From contig NZ_JASVDS010000005.1 in assembly GCF_030285365.1 (NCBI RefSeq), forward strand, positions 62,001 to 126,000: DNA of 64,000 bases, read 5' to 3'. The notes beneath the pieces were generated by a model. It was not told the DNA's origin and searched no databases. It was given only the letters and a program-made list of their open reading frames with translations. Source of the DNA: Roseateles subflavus. Lineage in GTDB: Bacteria; Pseudomonadota; Gammaproteobacteria; Burkholderiales; Burkholderiaceae_C. A program made the position numbers and the translations under genes. Of this stretch, positions 32,452-40,743 are shown piece by piece (the stretch's first letter is position 1; the number at the start of each line of letters is the position of its first letter).

Positions 32452-34155
32452 GCCGGCTTGGCCGGCCTGCGGCGGGGACTCGGTGACGGGGAGCGTGAGG
32501 GACTGCAGCGCGGCGAGATCCGCCAGCAGCCCGTCCGGCCCGAGCTGAGCCGCGAGGCCGCCGCGCTCGACCAGCGAGGCCGGCTGCTCGTTGAGCCCGA
32601 CGAGCACGAGGCGCCGGCCACTGCGCTGCAGGGCGCGATGCAGCTGGACGAGGGCATCCAGGCCCGTGCTGTCCATGGAGACGAGCTGGTGCAGATCCAG
32701 TGCCAGCACGCGGCAGTCGGCGGGCAGCTGCTCCCCGAGGGCCTCGACCTTGGCGACGGCACCGAAGAAGAGCGAGCCGTACACCTGCCGCAGCAGCACG
32801 CCGGCGGGCAGCACCGTGCCCGGCGGCGGCTCCGACACCCGGAACAGCTCGCTCATGCGGTAGACGAAGAAGCCGCAGGCCAGCATCAGCCCGGCCTCGA
32901 CGGCGACGGTCAGGTCGAACACCACGGTCAGCACGAAGGTGCCGAGCAAGGTGGCGCGATAGGGCAGCTTGAAGTGCCGCAGCCGGGCGAACTCGTGCCA
33001 CTCGCCCATGTTCCAGGCCACCACGAGCAGGATCCCCGCCAGCGCGGCCAGGGGCACCTGCGAGGCCAGCGGCGCGGCCGCCAGCACCACGACGAGCAGG
33101 GTGAGGGCGTGCACCATGCCTGACACCGGGCTGCTGGCGCCGGCCTTGACGTTGGTGACGGTGCGGGCGATGGTGCCGGTGGCCGGGATGCCGCCGAACA
33201 GCGGGGCCACGACGTTGGCGATGCCCTGCGCCATCAGCTCCTGGTTCGGGTCGTGGCGGCGGCCCTCGCCCAGGTTGTCCGCCACCCGCGCGCAGAGCAG
33301 CGACTCGATGGCGCCGAGCAGGGCGATGGTCAGCGCCGGCATCAGCAGCTGCTTGGCCTCCTCGAAGCTCAGGCCGGGCCAGGCCGGCGTGGGCAGCGAC
33401 TGCGGGATGCCGCCGAAGCGGCTGCCGATGGTGTCCAGCGGCAGGTGCAGCACGCTCGTGGCCAGCGTGGCCAGGGCCAGCGCCACCAGGGTGCCGGGCA
33501 GGTGGGCGGCCGCACGGTGCAGGCGTTCGCCCAGGCCCCGGGCGTCGCGGGCCATGGTGTAGCTCTTGGGCCAGGCGAGCACCAGCAGGCTGCATGCACC
33601 ACCGACGAGCGGGGCGATGGGATTGAGTCCGGCCCGGTGCTGCCACAGCGTCTCCAGCTGCGCGAAGAAGTCCGCCGGCATGCGGGCGATCGGCAGGCCG
33701 AGGAAGTCCTTGAGCTGGGAGAGGGCGATCAGCACCGCGATGCCGTTGGTGAAGCCGATCACGATGGACACGGGGATGTAGCGGACCAGCGCCCCCAGCC
33801 GCAGCGCGCCGAGCGCCAGCATCATCAGCCCGCCGAGCATGGTGGCGATCAGCAGGTTGTGCACGCCATAGCGCTGCACGATGCCGTAGACGATGACGAT
33901 GAAGGCGCCGGCCGGCCCGCCGATCTGCACGCTGGAGCCGCCCAGCGCCGAGATCAGGAAGCCCGCGACGATGGCGGTGGCGAGGCCCTGCTCGGGCTTG
34001 ACGCCGGACGCGATGGCGAAGGCCAGGGCCAGCGGCAGGGCCACGATGCCGACCGTGAGGCCGGCGCCGATGTCGCGGGCAAAGCGCGCCCGGTCATAGC
34101 CACGCAGGCTGTCGAGCAGGCGGGGCCGGAAGGCATGGAGTCGAGGCAGGGACAT
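32449..34155 (-). CDS. SulP-family anion transporter with STAS domain
   Basis: The protein has 568 residues. About 12 membrane segments cover residues 25-440, with the SulP motif GLTVGIVALPLALAFAIASG near the start and SSVQIGGPAGAFIVIVYGIV after it. The C-terminal STAS domain (about 455-550) has LDLHQLVSMDSTGLDALVQL. SulP proteins move sulfate, bicarbonate or other anions; the substrate cannot be told from sequence. It lies upstream of DUF3460 with its own stop inside the next gene's promoter. No carbonic anhydrase is adjacent. Confidence 0.92.
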   Translation of the reverse strand: MSLPRLHAFRPRLLDSLRGYDRARFARDIGAGLTVGIVALPLALAFAIASGVKPEQGLATAIVAGFLISALGGSSVQIGGPAGAFIVIVYGIVQRYGVHNLLIATMLGGLMMLALGALRLGALVRYIPVSIVIGFTNGIAVLIALSQLKDFLGLPIARMPADFFAQLETLWQHRAGLNPIAPLVGGACSLLVLAWPKSYTMARDARGLGERLHRAAAHLPGTLVALALATLATSVLHLPLDTIGSRFGGIPQSLPTPAWPGLSFEEAKQLLMPALTIALLGAIESLLCARVADNLGEGRRHDPNQELMAQGIANVVAPLFGGIPATGTIARTVTNVKAGASSPVSGMVHALTLLVVVLAAAPLASQVPLAALAGILLVVAWNMGEWHEFARLRHFKLPYRATLLGTFVLTVVFDLTVAVEAGLMLACGFFVYRMSELFRVSEPPPGTVLPAGVLLRQVYGSLFFGAVAKVEALGEQLPADCRVLALDLHQLVSMDSTGLDALVQLHRALQRSGRRLVLVGLNEQPASLVERGGLAAQLGPDGLLADLAALQSLTLPVTESPPQAGQAG

Positions 34156-34440: not shown

Positions 34441-36486
34441 TCAGCGCACGCGCATGCCCGGCTGGGCGCCCGGGAAGGGCTCCAGCACGAAGATGCCGGG
34501 GTTCGCCTTCTCGTCGGCGTGGCTCGCGGCCAGCACCATGCCCTCGCTCACGCCGAACTTCATCTTGCGAGGCGCCAGATTGGCCACCATCACCGTCAGC
34601 TTGCCTTCGAGGTCCTCGGGCTTGTAGGCGCTGCGGATGCCGCTGAAGACGTTGCGCAGGCGGCCTTCACCGGTGTCCAGGGTCAGGCGCAGCAGCTTGT
34701 CGGAGCCCTCGACCAGCTCGGCCTTGACGATCTTGGCGATGCGCAGGTCGACCTTGCTGAAGTCGTCGATCTTGATCTCGGGGGCCAGGTCTTCACCGCC
34801 GGGCACGACCTTGGGTGCGGCGGGCGGCTCGAACAGGGCCTCCAGCAGCTTCGGGTCGACGCGTTGCATCAGGTGCTCGTAGGCGCCGATCTGGTGGGCG
34901 CCCAGGGCGCGCTGGGCGTCGGCGAACTGCATGGGCTCGACCTTCAGGAAGGCTTCGACCTTGGCCACGAGTGCCGGCAGCACCGGCTTCAGGTAGATGG
35001 ACAGCAGGCGGAAGGCCTCGATGCAGACGCTGCAGACGTCCTGCAGCACCTGATCCTGGCCCTCGAGCTTGGCCAGCTCCCAGGGCTTGTTCTGGTCCAC
35101 GTACTCGTTGACGCGGTCGGCGAGCATCATGACCTCGCGCAGCGCCTTGCCGAACTCGCGGGTCTCGTAGAGCTCGGCCACGGTGCCGGCGTGGGCGCGC
35201 AGGCCGTCCAGCAGCGCGCGGCCCTCGACCCCCACGTCAGCGGAGAGGCGGCCGTCGAAGCGCTTGGCCAGGAAGCCGGCGGCGCGCGACGCGATGTTGA
35301 TGTACTTGCCGACGAGGTCCGAGTTGACGCGGGCCACGAAGTCCTCGGGATTGAAGTCGAGGTCCTCCACCTTGCTGTTGAGCTTGGCGGCCAGGTAGTA
35401 GCGCAGCCACTCGGCGTTCATGCCGAGGCTCAGGTACTTGAGCGGATCGAGGCCGGTGCCCCGGCTCTTGCTCATCTTCTCGCCGCCGTTGACGGTCAGG
35501 AAGCCGTGCACGTGCACGTGGTTGGGCGTCTTGCGGCCGCTGAAGTGCAGCATCGCGGGCCAGAACAGCGTGTGGAAATAGGTGATGTCCTTGCCGATGA
35601 AATGGATCTGCTCCACGGCGTCGTCAGCCAGGAAGGCGTCGAAGTCGCGGCCCAGCTTGCCGAAGTAGTTCTTCAGCGAGGCCAGGTAGCCGATGGGCGC
35701 GTCCAGCCAGACGTAGAAGTACTTGCCCGGGGCGTCGGGGATCTCGATGCCGAAGTAGGGCGCGTCGCGGCTGATGTCCCAGTCGCCCAGGCCGCCGTTG
35801 CCGTTCTCGTCCTTGGCGAACCATTCGCGGATCTTGTTCAGCACCTCGGTCTGCAGGCGGCCGGGCGTCTGCGTCCACTGCTCCAGGAACTCCACGCAGC
35901 GCGGGTCCGAGAGCTTGAAGAAGTAGTGGTCGGAACTCTTCATCACCGGCGTGGCGCCAGTCAGCACGGAGAAGGGGTTCTTCAGCTCCGTGGGCGTGTA
36001 GACCGCGCCGCAGACCTCGCAGGAGTCGCCGTACTGGTCCTTGGCCGCGCACTTGGGGCATTCGCCCTTGATGAAGCGGTCCGGCAGGAACATCGCCTTC
36101 TGCGGGTCGAAGAACTGCTCGATCGTCTTCACGGCGATCAGGTCCTTCGCACGCAGGGAACGGTAGATGGCCTGCGACAGCTCGTGGTTCTCGGCGCCGT
36201 CCGTCGAGTGCCAGTTGTCGAAGCTGATGTGGAAGCCGTCGAGGTACTGCTTGCGGCCCGCCGCGATCCCGGCGACGAACGCCTGCGGCGTCTTGCCCGC
36301 CTTCTCGGCGGCAATCATGATCGGCGCACCGTGGGCGTCATCCGCGCAGACGAAGTGCACCTCCTGACCCATCATGCGCTGGAAGCGCACCCAGATGTCG
36401 GCCTGGGTGTACTCCATGATGTGACCAATGTGGAAGTTCGCATTGGCGTAGGGCAGGGCAGTGGTGACGAAGAGCTTGCGAGTCAT
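34441..36486 (-). CDS. metG: Methionyl-tRNA synthetase with fused tRNA-binding domain
   Basis: The protein has 681 residues. It charges tRNA-Met. Motifs: HIGH at 19-22 ([18 protein letters not shown]), a four-Cys zinc knot ([17 protein letters not shown]), KMSKS in [17 protein letters not shown], the anticodon-binding helical domain, and a C-terminal EMAP-type domain ([20 protein letters not shown]) for tRNA binding and dimerisation. The ATG at 36486 fits the family N-terminus [17 protein letters not shown] -10-like TAAAAT lies 50 nt upstream and a terminator follows. Confidence 0.98.
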
Positions 36487-36571: not shown

Positions 36572-36760
36572 TCAGCCTTCCTGGCCGGGCGCCGCTGCGG
36601 TACTCGGGTTGCCAGGCTCGCCCTCGTCGGCCGGCGCGCCGTCGTCCGGGCGGCCGCCCTGCTGCTTGCGGGCCCGCTTCTCAGCGGCCTTTTCCTCGGC
36701 TTTGCGCTTCTTGGCCAGCTCGCGCTGGCGTTTCTCGTAGGAGTAGTTTGGAGTGGCCAA
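36572..36760 (-). CDS. Small basic protein of unknown function
   Basis: The protein has 62 residues from a TTG start: (M)[19 protein letters not shown], a Lys/Glu/Ala-rich helix, then an acidic Gly/Pro-rich tail. AAGGA lies 7 nt before the TTG and decides the start; the longer frame from 36859 lacks a site. The N-terminal half resembles short conserved hypothetical proteins common in Burkholderiales. It is likely a charged single helix; nucleic acid binding would be a guess. It lies upstream of metG on the same strand with an 85-nt gap. Confidence 0.7.
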
Positions 36761-36918
36761 AGTCCCGTCCTTGTATCGCGACGGCAAGTCACCGCCAACC
36801 CGACTGTAGCGCCTTGCCGCGGGCGCCGGCCATGCCGGGGTGCAGGCGCCTGCTGCCATCCCGCTTCAGCTTGCGCGTGCAAACGCTTGCTGCATCAAGG
36901 GAAAGCGCTCTTCTGGCC

Positions 36919-36927
36919 TGTGGATAA
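36919..36927 (+). promoter_or_regulatory. DnaA-box-like TGTGGATAA
   Basis: TGTGGATAA is the exact complement of the consensus DnaA box TTATCCACA. It is followed by GTTTGTGGG, as in the composite repeat, but the second half of the repeat is not at its expected place. Confidence 0.5.
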
Positions 36928-37300
36928 GTTTGTGGGAAACGCCGTGAAAACCACGCGTTGGCGGGGGCGTCTGCCGACGCGTGACCGGCGAGTCTCCAGG
37001 GAGTGGTTCAAAAAGTCCTTCTAAATCATGAGCTTGCGAACGACGTCGCCGGCGGACGCGGGGGCCGTCCGCGCAAGGCCCGGGGGCCGCCCATTGGGGA
37101 TAAGCCGGAGGCGGCGGCGCGCGTGGACGCGCTCGCCTGTGTCAATTGGCGCCACCTCCCCAGGCCGATGGAGAGGCCTGCCGGATGGCAGGGCGGTCGA
37201 GCGCCTCGTCATCAAACTTGGCGCATTGAGCTCAAGTAGCTTGGAGGGAGTATCGCCAAGTGCTTGATTCATCGGGACTAATGAAAGCTGTCCACTGATG

Positions 37301-37358
37301 CTGTGGATAAGTTTGTGGAGAAGCCGGATCGGCAGGGGCTAAATGCTTGATTCATCGG
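37301..37358 (+). repeat. Composite repeat, copy 1
   Basis: The left part CTGTGGATAAGTTTGTGG contains a DnaA-box consensus. The right part GCTAAATGCTTGATTCATCG has its AAATGCTTG starting exactly 40 nt after the first base of the left part, the same distance as in the copies at 37645 and 40658. It is non-coding. Confidence 0.65.
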
Positions 37359-37644
37359 CGCCGGAGGTAGGTTGCCTCAAAATCTTGCACTTCCGTGACG
37401 GCTATATGAATCAATGACTTAGCGCTTCGCTGCCGCAGGCGGAGGGCGTCTCGGCAGGGTTGGATGCCATTGTTTCCTTCTGAAACGCCGGGTCTGGCCG
37501 ATGGGGATAAGTCTGTCGCCGAGGGGCCGCTGCGCTGGCAAATCAAGCCCCGGCTGTGGTGCAAATGGGGGACAGCGCCACGGCCCCAGGGCGGTCATGC
37601 CGCCGCGGGCCGCCCCCCTGCCGTCCGGCAGGCATCCCCAGGGA

Positions 37645-37702
37645 CTGTGGACAAACTTGTGAGTCCGCTGAAGAAAGTGACGCTAAGTCCTTGATGGCAT
37701 TG
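37645..37702 (+). repeat. Composite repeat, copy 2
   Basis: CTGTGGACAAACTTGTGA on the left and GCTAAGTCCTTGATGGCATT on the right. AAGTCCTTG starts at 37685, again 40 nt after the first base of the unit. It lies about 110 nt before the minC -10 box. Confidence 0.6.
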
Positions 37703-37811
37703 CCTTTACCTTGGCCTGCTCAAGAATGCAGCAAGACGGCGCCTGCCGGGCGGGGAGGGCCCGCCCCCGGCCATGCGGGGGAACGCGGAGAGGCGGCCTC
37801 GTTCTGGCAGC

Positions 37812-37817
37812 TAAAAT
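37812..37817 (+). promoter_or_regulatory. Candidate -10 box for minCDE
   Basis: GCTAAAATGCC contains TAAAAT, a good -10 hexamer, 29 nt before the chosen minC ATG. TTCTGG just upstream is too close to be a -35 element. Confidence 0.5.
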
Positions 37818-37846
37818 GCCGCGATTTGCAGCCAATGGCCGGATTC

Positions 37847-38701
37847 ATGGGGCAGGGAACCGTTTCGCAGAAGTCAGAGAAGGCGTCCACCAACGCCGCG
37901 CCGGACAAGGCCGCCCCGCTGGAGGTGTTCGAGCTTCGCAGCGCCTCCATCGCCGCCTTCAGCCTGGTGCTGCGCAGCAGCGACCTCCAGCAACTGGGGG
38001 AGGCCCTGCAGCAGCGCCTGGGTGACACGCCGGAGGTGTTCAGCCAGGACCCGGTCGTGCTGGACCTGAGCCAGCTGCCCGCCGCGCCGGCCATGACCGA
38101 CGACGGCCAGCTGAGCCTCGAGGCCGCGGCCGTCCAGCTCGATTTCCCCGCCCTGATCGCGCTCCTGCGCCGCTTCCGCATGCAGGCCGTGGCCGTCAGC
38201 GGCGCCAGCGCCGAGCAGCTGGCCGCCGCACAGGCCGCCGGTCTGGCCGAGGCTGATGTGCCGGCCCAGCGCACGGAAGCGCCGCGGGTCGAGACCGTGG
38301 TGAAGGAGGTCGTGCGTGAGGTCATCGTCGAGCGCGAGGTGCCGGTTGCGGCGCCCGCCGAGCCGGCCCGCACGGTCATCCTGGACAAGCCCCTGCGCTC
38401 CGGCCAGCAGGTCTACGCCAAGGGCGCGGACCTGGTCGTGATGGCGCTCGTCAACCACGGTGCCGAGGTCATCGCCGACGGCAACATCCACGTCTACGCC
38501 CCCCTGCGTGGCAAGGCAATTGCCGGGGCCCGCGGGAACACCGAGGCGCGCATCTTCGCGGCCAGCCTCGAAGCCGAACTGATCGCCATCGCCGGCATCT
38601 ATCGCACCACCGAGAACCCGCTGCCCGCCGAGGTGCTGGGCAAGCCCGCCCAGGTGCGGCTCGAGGGCGAGAAGCTGGTGATGGAAGCCCTGAAACTCTG
38701 A
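37847..38701 (+). CDS. minC: Septum site-determining protein MinC
   Basis: The protein has 284 residues from ATG 37847; ATG 37835 (MAGFMGQ) is in frame and also possible, but has no Shine-Dalgarno, while GGCCGGA lies before 37847. The N-terminal FtsZ-inhibiting domain (FELRSASIAAFSLVLRSSDL) is joined by a Glu/Val-rich linker (VVKEVVREVIVEREVPV) to the C-terminal beta-helix domain (KPLRSGQQVYAKGADLVVMA, IHVYAPLRGKAIAGARG). It blocks FtsZ rings at the poles with MinD. It leads a minCDE operon. Confidence 0.96.
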   Translation: MGQGTVSQKSEKASTNAAPDKAAPLEVFELRSASIAAFSLVLRSSDLQQLGEALQQRLGDTPEVFSQDPVVLDLSQLPAAPAMTDDGQLSLEAAAVQLDFPALIALLRRFRMQAVAVSGASAEQLAAAQAAGLAEADVPAQRTEAPRVETVVKEVVREVIVEREVPVAAPAEPARTVILDKPLRSGQQVYAKGADLVVMALVNHGAEVIADGNIHVYAPLRGKAIAGARGNTEARIFAASLEAELIAIAGIYRTTENPLPAEVLGKPAQVRLEGEKLVMEALKL

Positions 38702-38756
38702 GCCGCCTGATGTCCGGGCGGCCGATCAACGAATTTTTGAAGAAGGAAGGCAATCG

Positions 38757-39572
38757 ATGACCAAGATCGTCGTGGTGACCTCGGGCAAAGGGGGCGTGGG
38801 CAAGACCACGACCAGTGCCAGCTTTGCAACCGGCCTCGCCATGCGCGGCTACAAGACCGCGGTGATCGACTTCGACGTGGGCCTGCGCAACCTGGACCTG
38901 ATCATGGGCTGCGAGCGCCGCGTGGTCTACGACCTGATCAACGTCATCAACGACGAGATCAAGCTCACGCAGGCCCTCATCAAGGACAAGCAGCTCGAGA
39001 AGCTCTACATCCTGGCCGCCTCCCAGACCCGCGACAAGGACGCCCTCACGCAGGAAGGCGTGGAGCGCGTGCTGGACGAGCTCAAGTCCATGGAGTTCGA
39101 CTACATCATCTGCGACTCCCCGGCCGGCATCGAGACGGGCGCGCTGATGGCCATGCACTACGCCGACGAGGCGCTGGTGGTGACCAATCCCGAGGTCTCC
39201 TCCGTGCGCGACTCGGACCGCATCCTGGGCATGCTCAACAGCAAGACCAAGCGCGCCATCGAAGGCAAGGAGCCCGTCAAGGAGCACCTGCTGATCACGC
39301 GCTACAACCCGAACCGGGTCGAGGGTGGCCAGATGCTGTCGCTGGAAGACATCCACGAGATTTTGCGCACGCCGCTGATCGGCGTGATCCCGGAGAGCGA
39401 GATCGTGCTGCAGGCCTCCAACCAGGGCCTGCCCGCCATCCACATGAAGGGCACGGATGTGGCCGAGGCCTATGCCGACGTGGTGGCCCGATTCCTGGGC
39501 GAGGACAAGCCCATGCGCTTCATCGAGGCCGTCAAGCCGGGCTTCTTCAAGCGCCTGTTCGGCGGCAAGTGA
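38757..39572 (+). CDS. minD: Septum site-determining ATPase MinD
   Basis: The protein has 271 residues, the usual length. The deviant Walker A is [19 protein letters not shown], with [20 protein letters not shown] after it and [10 protein letters not shown] as Walker B. The C-terminal amphipathic membrane helix is present ([14 protein letters not shown]). It recruits MinC to the membrane and oscillates with MinE. AAGAAGGAAGG precedes the ATG. Confidence 0.98.
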
Positions 39573-39585
39573 AGGAGCGGCCACG

Positions 39586-39846
39586 ATGGGATTCCTCTCG
39601 TTTTTCATTGGTGAAAAGAAGAGCACGGCCAGCGTCGCCAAGGAGCGCCTGCAGCTGATCCTGGCCCATGAGCGCAACGGCCGCAGCGCCAGCCCCGACT
39701 ACCTGCCCCAGCTGCAGAAGGAGCTGGTGGCGGTGATCTCCAAGTACGTCTCCATCAACCCGGACGACATCAAGGTCCACATGGAGCGCCAGGACAACCT
39801 GGAGGTGCTGGAGGTCAAGATCGAGCTGCCCGAGCCGGGGCGCTGA
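39586..39846 (+). CDS. minE: Cell division topological specificity factor MinE
   Basis: The protein has 86 residues. [20 protein letters not shown] and [20 protein letters not shown] are the MinD-binding region, followed by the dimer domain. It stimulates MinD ATPase and confines MinCD to the poles. GAAGGAG lies before the ATG, 13 nt after the minD stop. A strong terminator follows. Confidence 0.98.
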
Positions 39847-39869
39847 GCCTTCGCCGGCCTCTCAAATGC

Positions 39870-39902
39870 AAAGGGCCAGTCCTCGCGGACCGGCCCTTTT
39901 TT
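39870..39902 (+). terminator. Terminator after minE
   Basis: AAAGGGCC-AGTCC, loop TCGC, GGAC-CGGCCCTTT forms a long GC-rich stem followed by TTT. It sits between the convergent minE and acyltransferase genes; the A-run on the left could let it work both ways. Confidence 0.88.
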
Positions 39903-39919
39903 GCTGCCTGCGCGAGTGT

Positions 39920-40510
39920 TCAGGCGTGGTCGAACTGCGAGGCGTTCTTGCCCTTGAACGGGGCGTAGAAGGCCTTGATCTGGGCCATGTCGGCCTCGAT
40001 GTCGCCCGTGGGCACGAAGACTGGGCCCAGGCCGCTGAGCTTGCGGGCGTAGTCCATGTAGGCCATCACGATGGGGACCTCGGCGGTGACGGCGATCCAG
40101 TAGAAGCCGGTCTTCCAGTAGCGCGTCTTGCTGCGCGTGCCCTCGGGCGGCACGACCAGCTGCAGCGGGCCGTCGGCCGCCTTGATGGCGTCGGCGGAGG
40201 CGGCGACGAGGTTGCTGCTCTTCTCGCGCTGCACGGCGATGCCGCCCAGCCAGCGCATGACGGGTCCGAAGGGGAAGCGGAAGATCTGCGCCTTGCCCAT
40301 CCAGTAGATGTTCAGGCGCAGGGCGAAGGCCACCATCAGCGTGTAGGGCAGGTCCCAGTTGCTGGTGTGCGGCGCGGCGATCAGCACGCACTTGTCCTGA
40401 CCCGCGGGCAGGGCGCCATCCAGCTTCCAGCCCGTCAGCCGCAAGAAACCCACCGAGAACGCCCGCAGCACGGTGTTGACGACGGGGGTGGTGAAGATGG
40501 TGCGATGCAT
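39920..40510 (-). CDS. PlsC-like lysophospholipid acyltransferase family protein
   Basis: The protein has 196 residues from ATG 40510. It has the acyltransferase block I (APHTSNWDLPYTL, HX4D), block II (RWLGGIAVQRE) and block III (VVPPEGTRSKTRYWKTGFY). Family members move acyl chains to lysophosphatidic acid or other lipids; the substrate here is not known, and it is short for a canonical PlsC. A second gene of the same type lies at 56720-57400. It is convergent with minE. Confidence 0.88.
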   Translation of the reverse strand: MHRTIFTTPVVNTVLRAFSVGFLRLTGWKLDGALPAGQDKCVLIAAPHTSNWDLPYTLMVAFALRLNIYWMGKAQIFRFPFGPVMRWLGGIAVQREKSSNLVAASADAIKAADGPLQLVVPPEGTRSKTRYWKTGFYWIAVTAEVPIVMAYMDYARKLSGLGPVFVPTGDIEADMAQIKAFYAPFKGKNASQFDHA

Positions 40511-40743
40511 GCGGGGCCGGGTGTTGAAAGACAGCCCGCCATTATCCCGTCCGCCAGCAGGGGCACGCCTGCCCATTTCTGCAGCAGATCAACAAAGTCC
40601 GTGAAGAAACAAGCACTTGCGGCAGCGCTGCAGAGGCCATGCACGGACTTGTCCACAGGCGCTGTGGATGCCGGAGGCGGGCTGGCACGCGCCGCGTGGC
40701 ACCGGGCGGAGGGCACGATGCGGAGGGCACCAAGCGGCGGGCA
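40511..40743. other. Intergenic region with inverted copy of the composite repeat
   Basis: A 233-nt gap between the acyltransferase start and the ferredoxin stop. Apart from the repeat at 40606-40658 I see a CTGTGGAT at 40662-40669 and no gene. Confidence 0.5.
40606..40658 (-). repeat. Composite repeat, copy 3, inverted
   Basis: On the minus strand CTGTGGACAAGTCCGTG begins at 40658 and GCAAGTGCTTGTTTC ends at 40606. AAGTGCTTG starts exactly 40 nt after the first base, as in copies 1 and 2. Its orientation is opposite to theirs, so copies 2 and 3 flank minCDE and the acyltransferase gene as inverted repeats 2.9 kb apart. Confidence 0.6.

Follow-up and report, generated by a model that had tools for sequence, protein, structure and literature searches.

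What holds the two arms of a short repeat upstream of minC exactly 40 nt apart while the sequence between them varies? The question is raised by a 64,000-nt stretch of Roseateles subflavus DNA (NZ_JASVDS010000005.1, positions 62,001-126,000, from a genome of 5.05 Mb), which was analyzed at its full length and is referred to hereafter as the window. An earlier note on this DNA had described three copies of a unit with a left arm resembling a DnaA box and a right arm in constant register, and had proposed two bound or paired elements, with a DnaA-titration site, a nucleoid-protein site and a short mobile or RNA element as possible identities.

Fixed spacing of the two arms

The window was searched with CTGTGGAYAA-N30-AARTSCTTG, with three mismatches allowed. 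Three matches were obtained, at 37301 (+), 37645 (+) and 40658 (-), none of which contained a mismatch; the chance expectation for this pattern in the window was 0.03, and none of 100 dinucleotide shuffles reached three matches. The claim of three copies with a fixed 40-nt phase was thus borne out. Copies 1 and 2 belong to an array between metG and minC, and the third lies approximately 3 kb away from it.

When the gap was freed to 20-45 nt, four matches were found in the own genome, every one with the 30-nt gap, and the reversed control of this pattern gave no match there. Across 149 genomes (the own genome and relatives), 62 matches from 33 genomes were listed; the gap was exactly 30 nt in 47 of these listed matches, and the reversed control yielded two matches. 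Hence, the phase was kept in further copies, not lost as the earlier note had considered possible. Spacers vary from copy to copy, while the distances are constant.

A lone match to the right arm, AAGTCCTTGA at 33704-33713, lies inside a long open reading frame with no DnaA boxes nearby and is probably due to chance.

Anatomy and conservation of the module

The anatomy of the unit was derived from an alignment of 180 distinct units sharing TGTGGAYAA-N30-AARTSCTTG, four of them from the own genome. Read in this way, the unit described earlier is the visible part of a putative module of about 105 bp, and its left arm is, as judged from the aligned sites, DnaA box II of a predicted three-box cluster consisting of an inverted box I, 5 bp, box II, 3 bp and box III. 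An inverted DnaA box with up to three mismatches was located at -14 from box II in 144 of the 180 units (next best inverted offset, 34 units, at +46 and overlapping the IHF-type site), and a forward box of the same quality at +12 in 134 units (next best forward offset besides 0, 13 units), so that no conserved DnaA box was found past the IHF-type site in these units. Boxes I and III commonly deviate from the consensus by 2-4 mismatches. The gaps were also counted in 148 loci, comprising 118 listed loci chosen irrespective of gaps and 30 picked by the model. Here, a box I-II gap of 5 occurred in 198 pairs, followed by 46 pairs at gap 17, which is the distance from box I to box III, and a box II-III gap of 3 occurred in 133 pairs, the next most frequent gap occurring in 4 pairs.

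The right arm reads YAARTSCTTGATT and fits the IHF consensus TAAnnnnTTGATW (PMC4245941), a fit that is partly due to the selection of units. A sequence match to this site, with at least eight of the nine defined positions, was present at +38 in 149 of the 180 units, again partly by selection. At the same threshold, further IHF-type sites occurred at -46 to -43 in 47 units and, inverted, at +104 to +108 in 99 units; for the inverted site, the other five-offset stretches tested reached at most 3.

In the same alignment a palindrome, TGCC-N9-GGCA, lies at +71; its centre, at +77 to +81, is A/T-rich, 122 units carry G at +72, and likewise 122 carry C at +86. The full Fis consensus was matched by 6 (+71) or 7 (+72) of the 180 units, and five of its six positions by 21 and 36 units, respectively; other offsets gave as many or more five-position fits by chance of the DnaA boxes (92 at +4, 34 at +36). 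"Fis-like" is therefore used as a possible reading of the palindrome and not as a result, and it is the weakest part of the DARS interpretation developed below.

Deviating gap classes were accommodated by the same anatomy. The 36-nt and 46-nt classes, which at first we viewed as noise, a view since dropped, are consistent in the nine cases checked with a match of the pattern to box III of this module (three of four in the 36-nt class and six of six in the 46-nt class), several of these having boxes I and II with 3-4 mismatches. Two 47-nt cases and a 49-nt case fit the module with the IHF offset shifted by one base, one of the 47-nt cases without a good box I. A 43-nt case does not fit.

The sites in the window are collected in Table 1. 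All seven DnaA boxes with at most one mismatch in the 64 kb fall within 36919-40649, and exact YAANNNNTTGATW sites occur only three times in the 64 kb, at 37257, 37340 and 37409, all around copy 1. Box III is poor in copies 2 and 3. A half copy of the right arm, which the earlier note had placed at 37258, is indeed present; instead of a stray arm, it reads as the upstream IHF-type site of copy 1, at a distance of 45 bp from box II.

Table 1. Coordinates of predicted sites and flanking genes in the window (offsets are given from the start of box II)
Feature	Position	Strand	Remarks
metG (methionyl-tRNA synthetase), left flank	34441..36486	-	Pfam PF09334, PF01588
Partial module, boxes II and III only, TGTGGATAAGTTTGTGGGAAA	36919..36939	+	model match E 1.7e-4; 21/21 and 20/21 identical in congeners
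Single DnaA box-like site, TGGGGATAA	37095..37103	+	conserved in two congeners
Copy 1, upstream IHF-type site (the earlier half copy)	37257..37269	+	exact consensus; offset -45, a recurring position
Copy 1, DnaA box I, CTGTCCACT	37288..37296	-	inverted, 3 mismatches; offset -14
Copy 1, DnaA box II, TGTGGATAA	37302..37310	+	perfect
Copy 1, DnaA box III, TGTGGAGAA	37314..37322	+	1 mismatch; offset +12
Copy 1, IHF-type site, TAAATGCTTGATT	37340..37352	+	exact YAANNNNTTGATW
Copy 1, Fis-like palindrome, TGCCTCAAAATCTTGCA	37373..37389	.	fixed offset +71
Copy 1, downstream IHF-type site, TAAGTCATTGATT	37409..37421	-	inverted, exact consensus; offset +107, a recurring position
Single DnaA box-like site, TGGGGATAA	37502..37510	+	conserved in two congeners
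Copy 2, DnaA box I, GCATCCCCA	37632..37640	-	weak; offset -14; 8/9 and 9/9 identical in two congeners
Copy 2, DnaA box II, TGTGGACAA	37646..37654	+	
Copy 2, DnaA box III position, TGTGAGTCC	37658..37666	+	poor box
Copy 2, IHF-type site, TAAGTCCTTGATG	37684..37696	+	1 mismatch
Copy 2, Fis-like palindrome, TGCTCAAGAATGCAGCA	37717..37733	.	
minC, right flank	37847..38701	+	Pfam PF03775, PF05209 (MinC)
minD, after minC	38757..39572		named from CbiA/ParA-type Pfam matches and place in the operon
minE, after minD	to 39846		Pfam PF03776 (MinE)
Copy 3 (module on - strand), Fis-like palindrome	40570..40586	.	from the model alignment
Copy 3, IHF-type site, CAAGTGCTTGTTT	40607..40619	-	1 mismatch
Copy 3, DnaA box II, TGTGGACAA	40649..40657	-	
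Copy 3, DnaA box I	40663..40671	+	

Between metG and the array there is also a small open reading frame rich in lysine and arginine (36572-36760, -), and a similar one was seen in locus L099.

The sites of the metG-minC array were 93.9% and 93.3% identical in two congeners, versus 61.2% and 60.7% outside the sites. When the site set was slid along by shifts of at least 15, mean identity was 0.665 and the maximum 0.796, and none of 1049 shifts reached the 0.936 of the sites themselves. The window and the unit model, and not the congener alignment, had served to define the set; the congener units were already known by then.

With regard to partner proteins, the own genome has one dnaA as well as IhfA and IhfB, both above the NCBIfam cut-offs. 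It also encodes a 77-aa Fis that scores above the cut-off of NF002517, the E. coli-type model NF001659 remaining below its own; fis directly follows dusB (TIGR00737), an order as in E. coli.

Likeness to the DnaA-control sites of Escherichia coli

In E. coli K-12, DARS1 (bioD-uvrB) consists of box I, 5 bp, box II, 3 bp and box III, and the three-box spacing is equal at DARS1 and DARS2, with box I opposite to boxes II and III (PMC5742627). The rppH-mutH region of E. coli holds two cores with these gaps (5 and 3), at L056:2136 and L056:2452, 316 bp apart. After the first come two IHF-like sites separated by 3 bp (2229 and 2245, one mismatch each, on opposite strands), and then a full Fis consensus at 2281. 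Since, according to Kasho et al., 3 bp separate IBS1 from IBS2 in DARS2 and the Fis sites needed lie beyond them (PMC4245941), L056:2136 was taken as the DARS2 core.

We compared these loci with a sequence-only model of 107 positions (R1), built from 50 of 95 diverse units from relatives, congeners included, with none from the own genome. R1, whose E-values are rough, aligned in exact register with the DARS1 core (E 1.3e-4 in a search of 85 kb) and reported the second mutH-region core, with a match at L056:2451, at E 0.0044; the L056:2136 core was not reported at E<=10. Further, R1 matched in part E. coli datA (E 0.0012) and oriC R4 (E 0.0022), and the box II-III part is therefore not exclusive to DARS. 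The module as a copy of oriC, which has the same classes of site, was rejected: no R1 match at E<=5 was found in 10 kb around dnaA of the own genome or of genome G009.

With E. coli DARS2 the module shares the three-box core with an inverted box I and gaps of 5 and 3, a host with IHF and Fis and, if the palindrome is read as a Fis site, the order core, IHF, Fis; the nearer IHF site falls on roughly the same helical face. It differs in the IHF offset (79 in DARS2, for the site as identified here, versus 38 or 48), the E. coli core-IHF-Fis distances not being reproduced, and in number, E. coli having one DARS2 locus and two DARS in all as opposed to the seven copies here, some in arrays. Other differences are the neighbour genes, the extra IHF-type sites on both flanks and a Fis-like site that only partly fits the E. 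coli consensus. DARS1 shares the core geometry and, as the in-register match of R1 indicates, the core sequence; however, it needs no other protein factor (PMC4585315), whereas the unit here includes an IHF-type site. With three boxes in DARS spacing and orientation (boxes I and III often imperfect) and an IHF-type site on the box III side, the architecture is, as far as sequence can tell, very probably that of a DARS-type core with a phased IHF-type site. In this sense the sequence supports the proposal that two bound elements are kept in register, one for DnaA (left arm) and one for a nucleoid protein (right arm), given the fit to the IHF consensus and the geometry of core and IHF site.

From the start of box II to the start of the IHF site, the main class measures 38, a second class 48 and E. 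coli DARS2 as identified here 79; these distances correspond to turn fractions of 0.65, 0.62 and 0.60 at 10.4 bp and of 0.62, 0.57 and 0.52 at 10.5 bp. As these fractions are alike, the IHF bend would point about the same way in all three, the E. coli value resting on the choice of one of two 1-mismatch IHF sites, of which the second points the other way. In E. coli DARS2, distance and direction of the IHF bend matter: moving the IHF site towards Fis by 5 bp left partial activity only and by 10 bp moderate activity, while moving it 5 or 10 bp towards the core left only partial activity in both cases (PMC4245941). By analogy, the 40-nt phase would be what a DARS2-like machine needs, and the natural 38/48/79-bp series offers a ready test of the helical-phase rule that the E. 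coli experiments suggest.

The finding at metG-minC most likely belongs to DnaA control. Building on the site anatomy, the fixed phase, the conservation of sites over spacers, the presence of the DnaA, Fis and IHF genes and the gene borders that recur across many genomes, we consider it probable that the copies constitute a multi-copy, compact DARS2-like array recharging ADP-DnaA; we infer that proteins bind the sites, that ADP is released and that the process runs towards reactivation (as opposed to hydrolysis or titration). In such a mechanism, ADP-DnaA would be held by three DnaA boxes arranged as in E. coli DARS, with boxes I and II face to face, and IHF, bound at a distance of 38 bp from the box II start, would bend the DNA sharply and return the Fis-type site onto the DnaA complex. 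The AAA+ domains of DnaA would be strained and ADP would leave, and the freed DnaA would take up ATP and become able to start replication. The metG-minC array, the third copy and the four other copies in the genome could then act as a distributed set of recharging stations.

The titration site considered by the earlier note is retained as a rival, in a form extended to datA: the modules would bind DnaA with IHF and either hydrolyse its ATP or soak up DnaA after replication. Clustered boxes with IHF sites and the partial R1 match to datA are in line with this, seven copies would suit titration, and datA, DARS1 and DARS2 are said to supply a large fraction of the titration power of the E. coli chromosome (PMC12371093). 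However, the geometry differs from that of datA, whose IHF site is flanked by DnaA boxes (PMC5742627), and titration alone would demand neither the 5/3 core nor a phased IHF site. As it accounts less well for the fixed geometry, we regard this alternative as rather unlikely.

Conservation of DARS outside E. coli is not new, because two reviews already state it: one from 2017 reports that DARS2 spacing is conserved in the beta- or gamma-proteobacteria proximal to E. coli (PMC5742627), and one from 2023 reports DARS1/DARS2-like sequences in many proteobacterial species (PMC10380432). Kasho et al. (2014) had described both Fis and the DARS2 core as conserved specifically among gamma-proteobacteria related to E. 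coli (PMC4245941). In the literature searched, which was available in part and covered few subscription papers, nothing was found that dealt with compact DARS modules in multiple copies, with DARS in any named Burkholderiales, or with DARS arrays at metG-minC, hemE-priA or xseA-exbB. A recognisable DARS-like module with a 107-position profile makes candidate recharging sites countable and mappable in very many genomes, and it would allow testing whether several stations replace DARS1 and DARS2 in Burkholderiales. To our knowledge, which here is an impression and not a survey, DnaA reactivation outside E. coli has been little studied.

Distribution among genomes and gene neighbours

In the own genome, seven full-length copies were detected by R1 at E<=2.2e-6; a further 16 matches, most of them partial, were weaker and ranged up to E 1. 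Besides the three in the window, there is one copy upstream of groES-groEL, one between exbB and xseA, one near thioredoxin-like and hexapeptide-transferase genes, and one between outer-membrane efflux and acetyltransferase genes. The module upstream of groES-groEL (G000:C12:262790-262892) is the top-scoring one in this genome (62 bits). All 14 relatives examined, ten of which had matched the freed-gap pattern before and four of which had not, contained R1 matches at E<=1e-4, with 3 to 11 matches each, not all of full length.

At E<=1e-5, R1 matched 105 of 150 sampled genomes of the order and 96 of 185 sampled class genomes, many of the class matches being confined to roughly the first 40-60 positions. 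In the phylum sample it matched 23 of 120 genomes, 15 of which lie outside the class, 11 of those in one family. This last sample was meant as a negative control; DARS cores and false positives look alike there, and R1 is no clean taxonomic discriminator. The bare core with both gaps freed was detected in 121 of 274 class genomes, compared to one match for the reversed control, and 129 of 150 listed bare-core matches had the exact DARS gaps and 147 the box I-II gap. A scan of a genome collection returned at least 118 stretches, and the 80 titles listed were mostly of Burkholderiales or unnamed beta-proteobacteria (Roseateles, Rubrivivax, Azohydromonas, Massilia, Rugamonas, Ideonella, Aquabacterium and others), besides which there were some less specific labels, a MAG under the title Vitreoscilla and another under Oceanospirillales.

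Among the 118 loci listed, some of which come from one genome, 95 sit at one of three recurring gene borders: within 2.5 kb, 48 have priA or hemE, 31 xseA or exbB and 16 metG or min genes, leaving 23 with none of these. PriA, HemE, XseA and ExbB were recognised by eye in these loci, XseA and ExbB being confirmed by Pfam in the own genome.

These neighbours bear on a second alternative, in which the array would be a regulatory region through which DnaA and IHF impose cell-cycle control on minCDE or metG. DnaA is also a transcription regulator (PMC11317965), and copies 1 and 2 lie upstream of minC. Nevertheless, the module is also found at the priA/hemE and xseA/exbB borders and, in the own genome, upstream of groES and at exbB-xseA, with no common regulon apparent, which makes this explanation improbable. 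A dispersed mobile repeat of the REP/MITE type or a small RNA element, as the earlier note had also offered, is very unlikely: there are several similar copies, some in arrays, but the spacers vary while the distances hold and the same gene borders recur, the only viral contig match lies inside an open reading frame, Rfam gave no match at gathering scores, and RNA folding z-scores of the copies (-0.02, -0.91 and -0.23) indicated no unusually stable fold.

Returning to the recharging array, we tentatively propose that in Burkholderiales DnaA recharging may be spread over many compact DARS2-like modules, in arrays of up to four, at a few recurring borders beside genes of replication and cell division (priA, xseA and minCDE). 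If true, this would be a multi-station system in which the number and position of modules tune the timing of initiation, unlike the two-site scheme of E. coli.

With respect to chromosome position, no one location was favoured. In five relatives with most of the genome on the main contig, matches lay from 0.08 to 0.96 of the way from dnaA, used as a stand-in for oriC, to the opposite point. Clusters of modules were located at 0.31, 0.66, 0.70 and 0.71, the fifth relative having none; for comparison, E. coli DARS2 and DARS1 are at 0.41 and 0.66. In one relative, a module was found on a second contig, possibly a secondary replicon (G059:C2:36271-36374).

Finally, four loci carry four modules in the same orientation at almost constant intervals of about 360, 270 and 360 bp (L035:5181-6181, L100:5744-6736, L102:3493-4478 and L160:3374-4366). 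L100 and L102 are from Azohydromonas, and the array spacing itself seems to be conserved.
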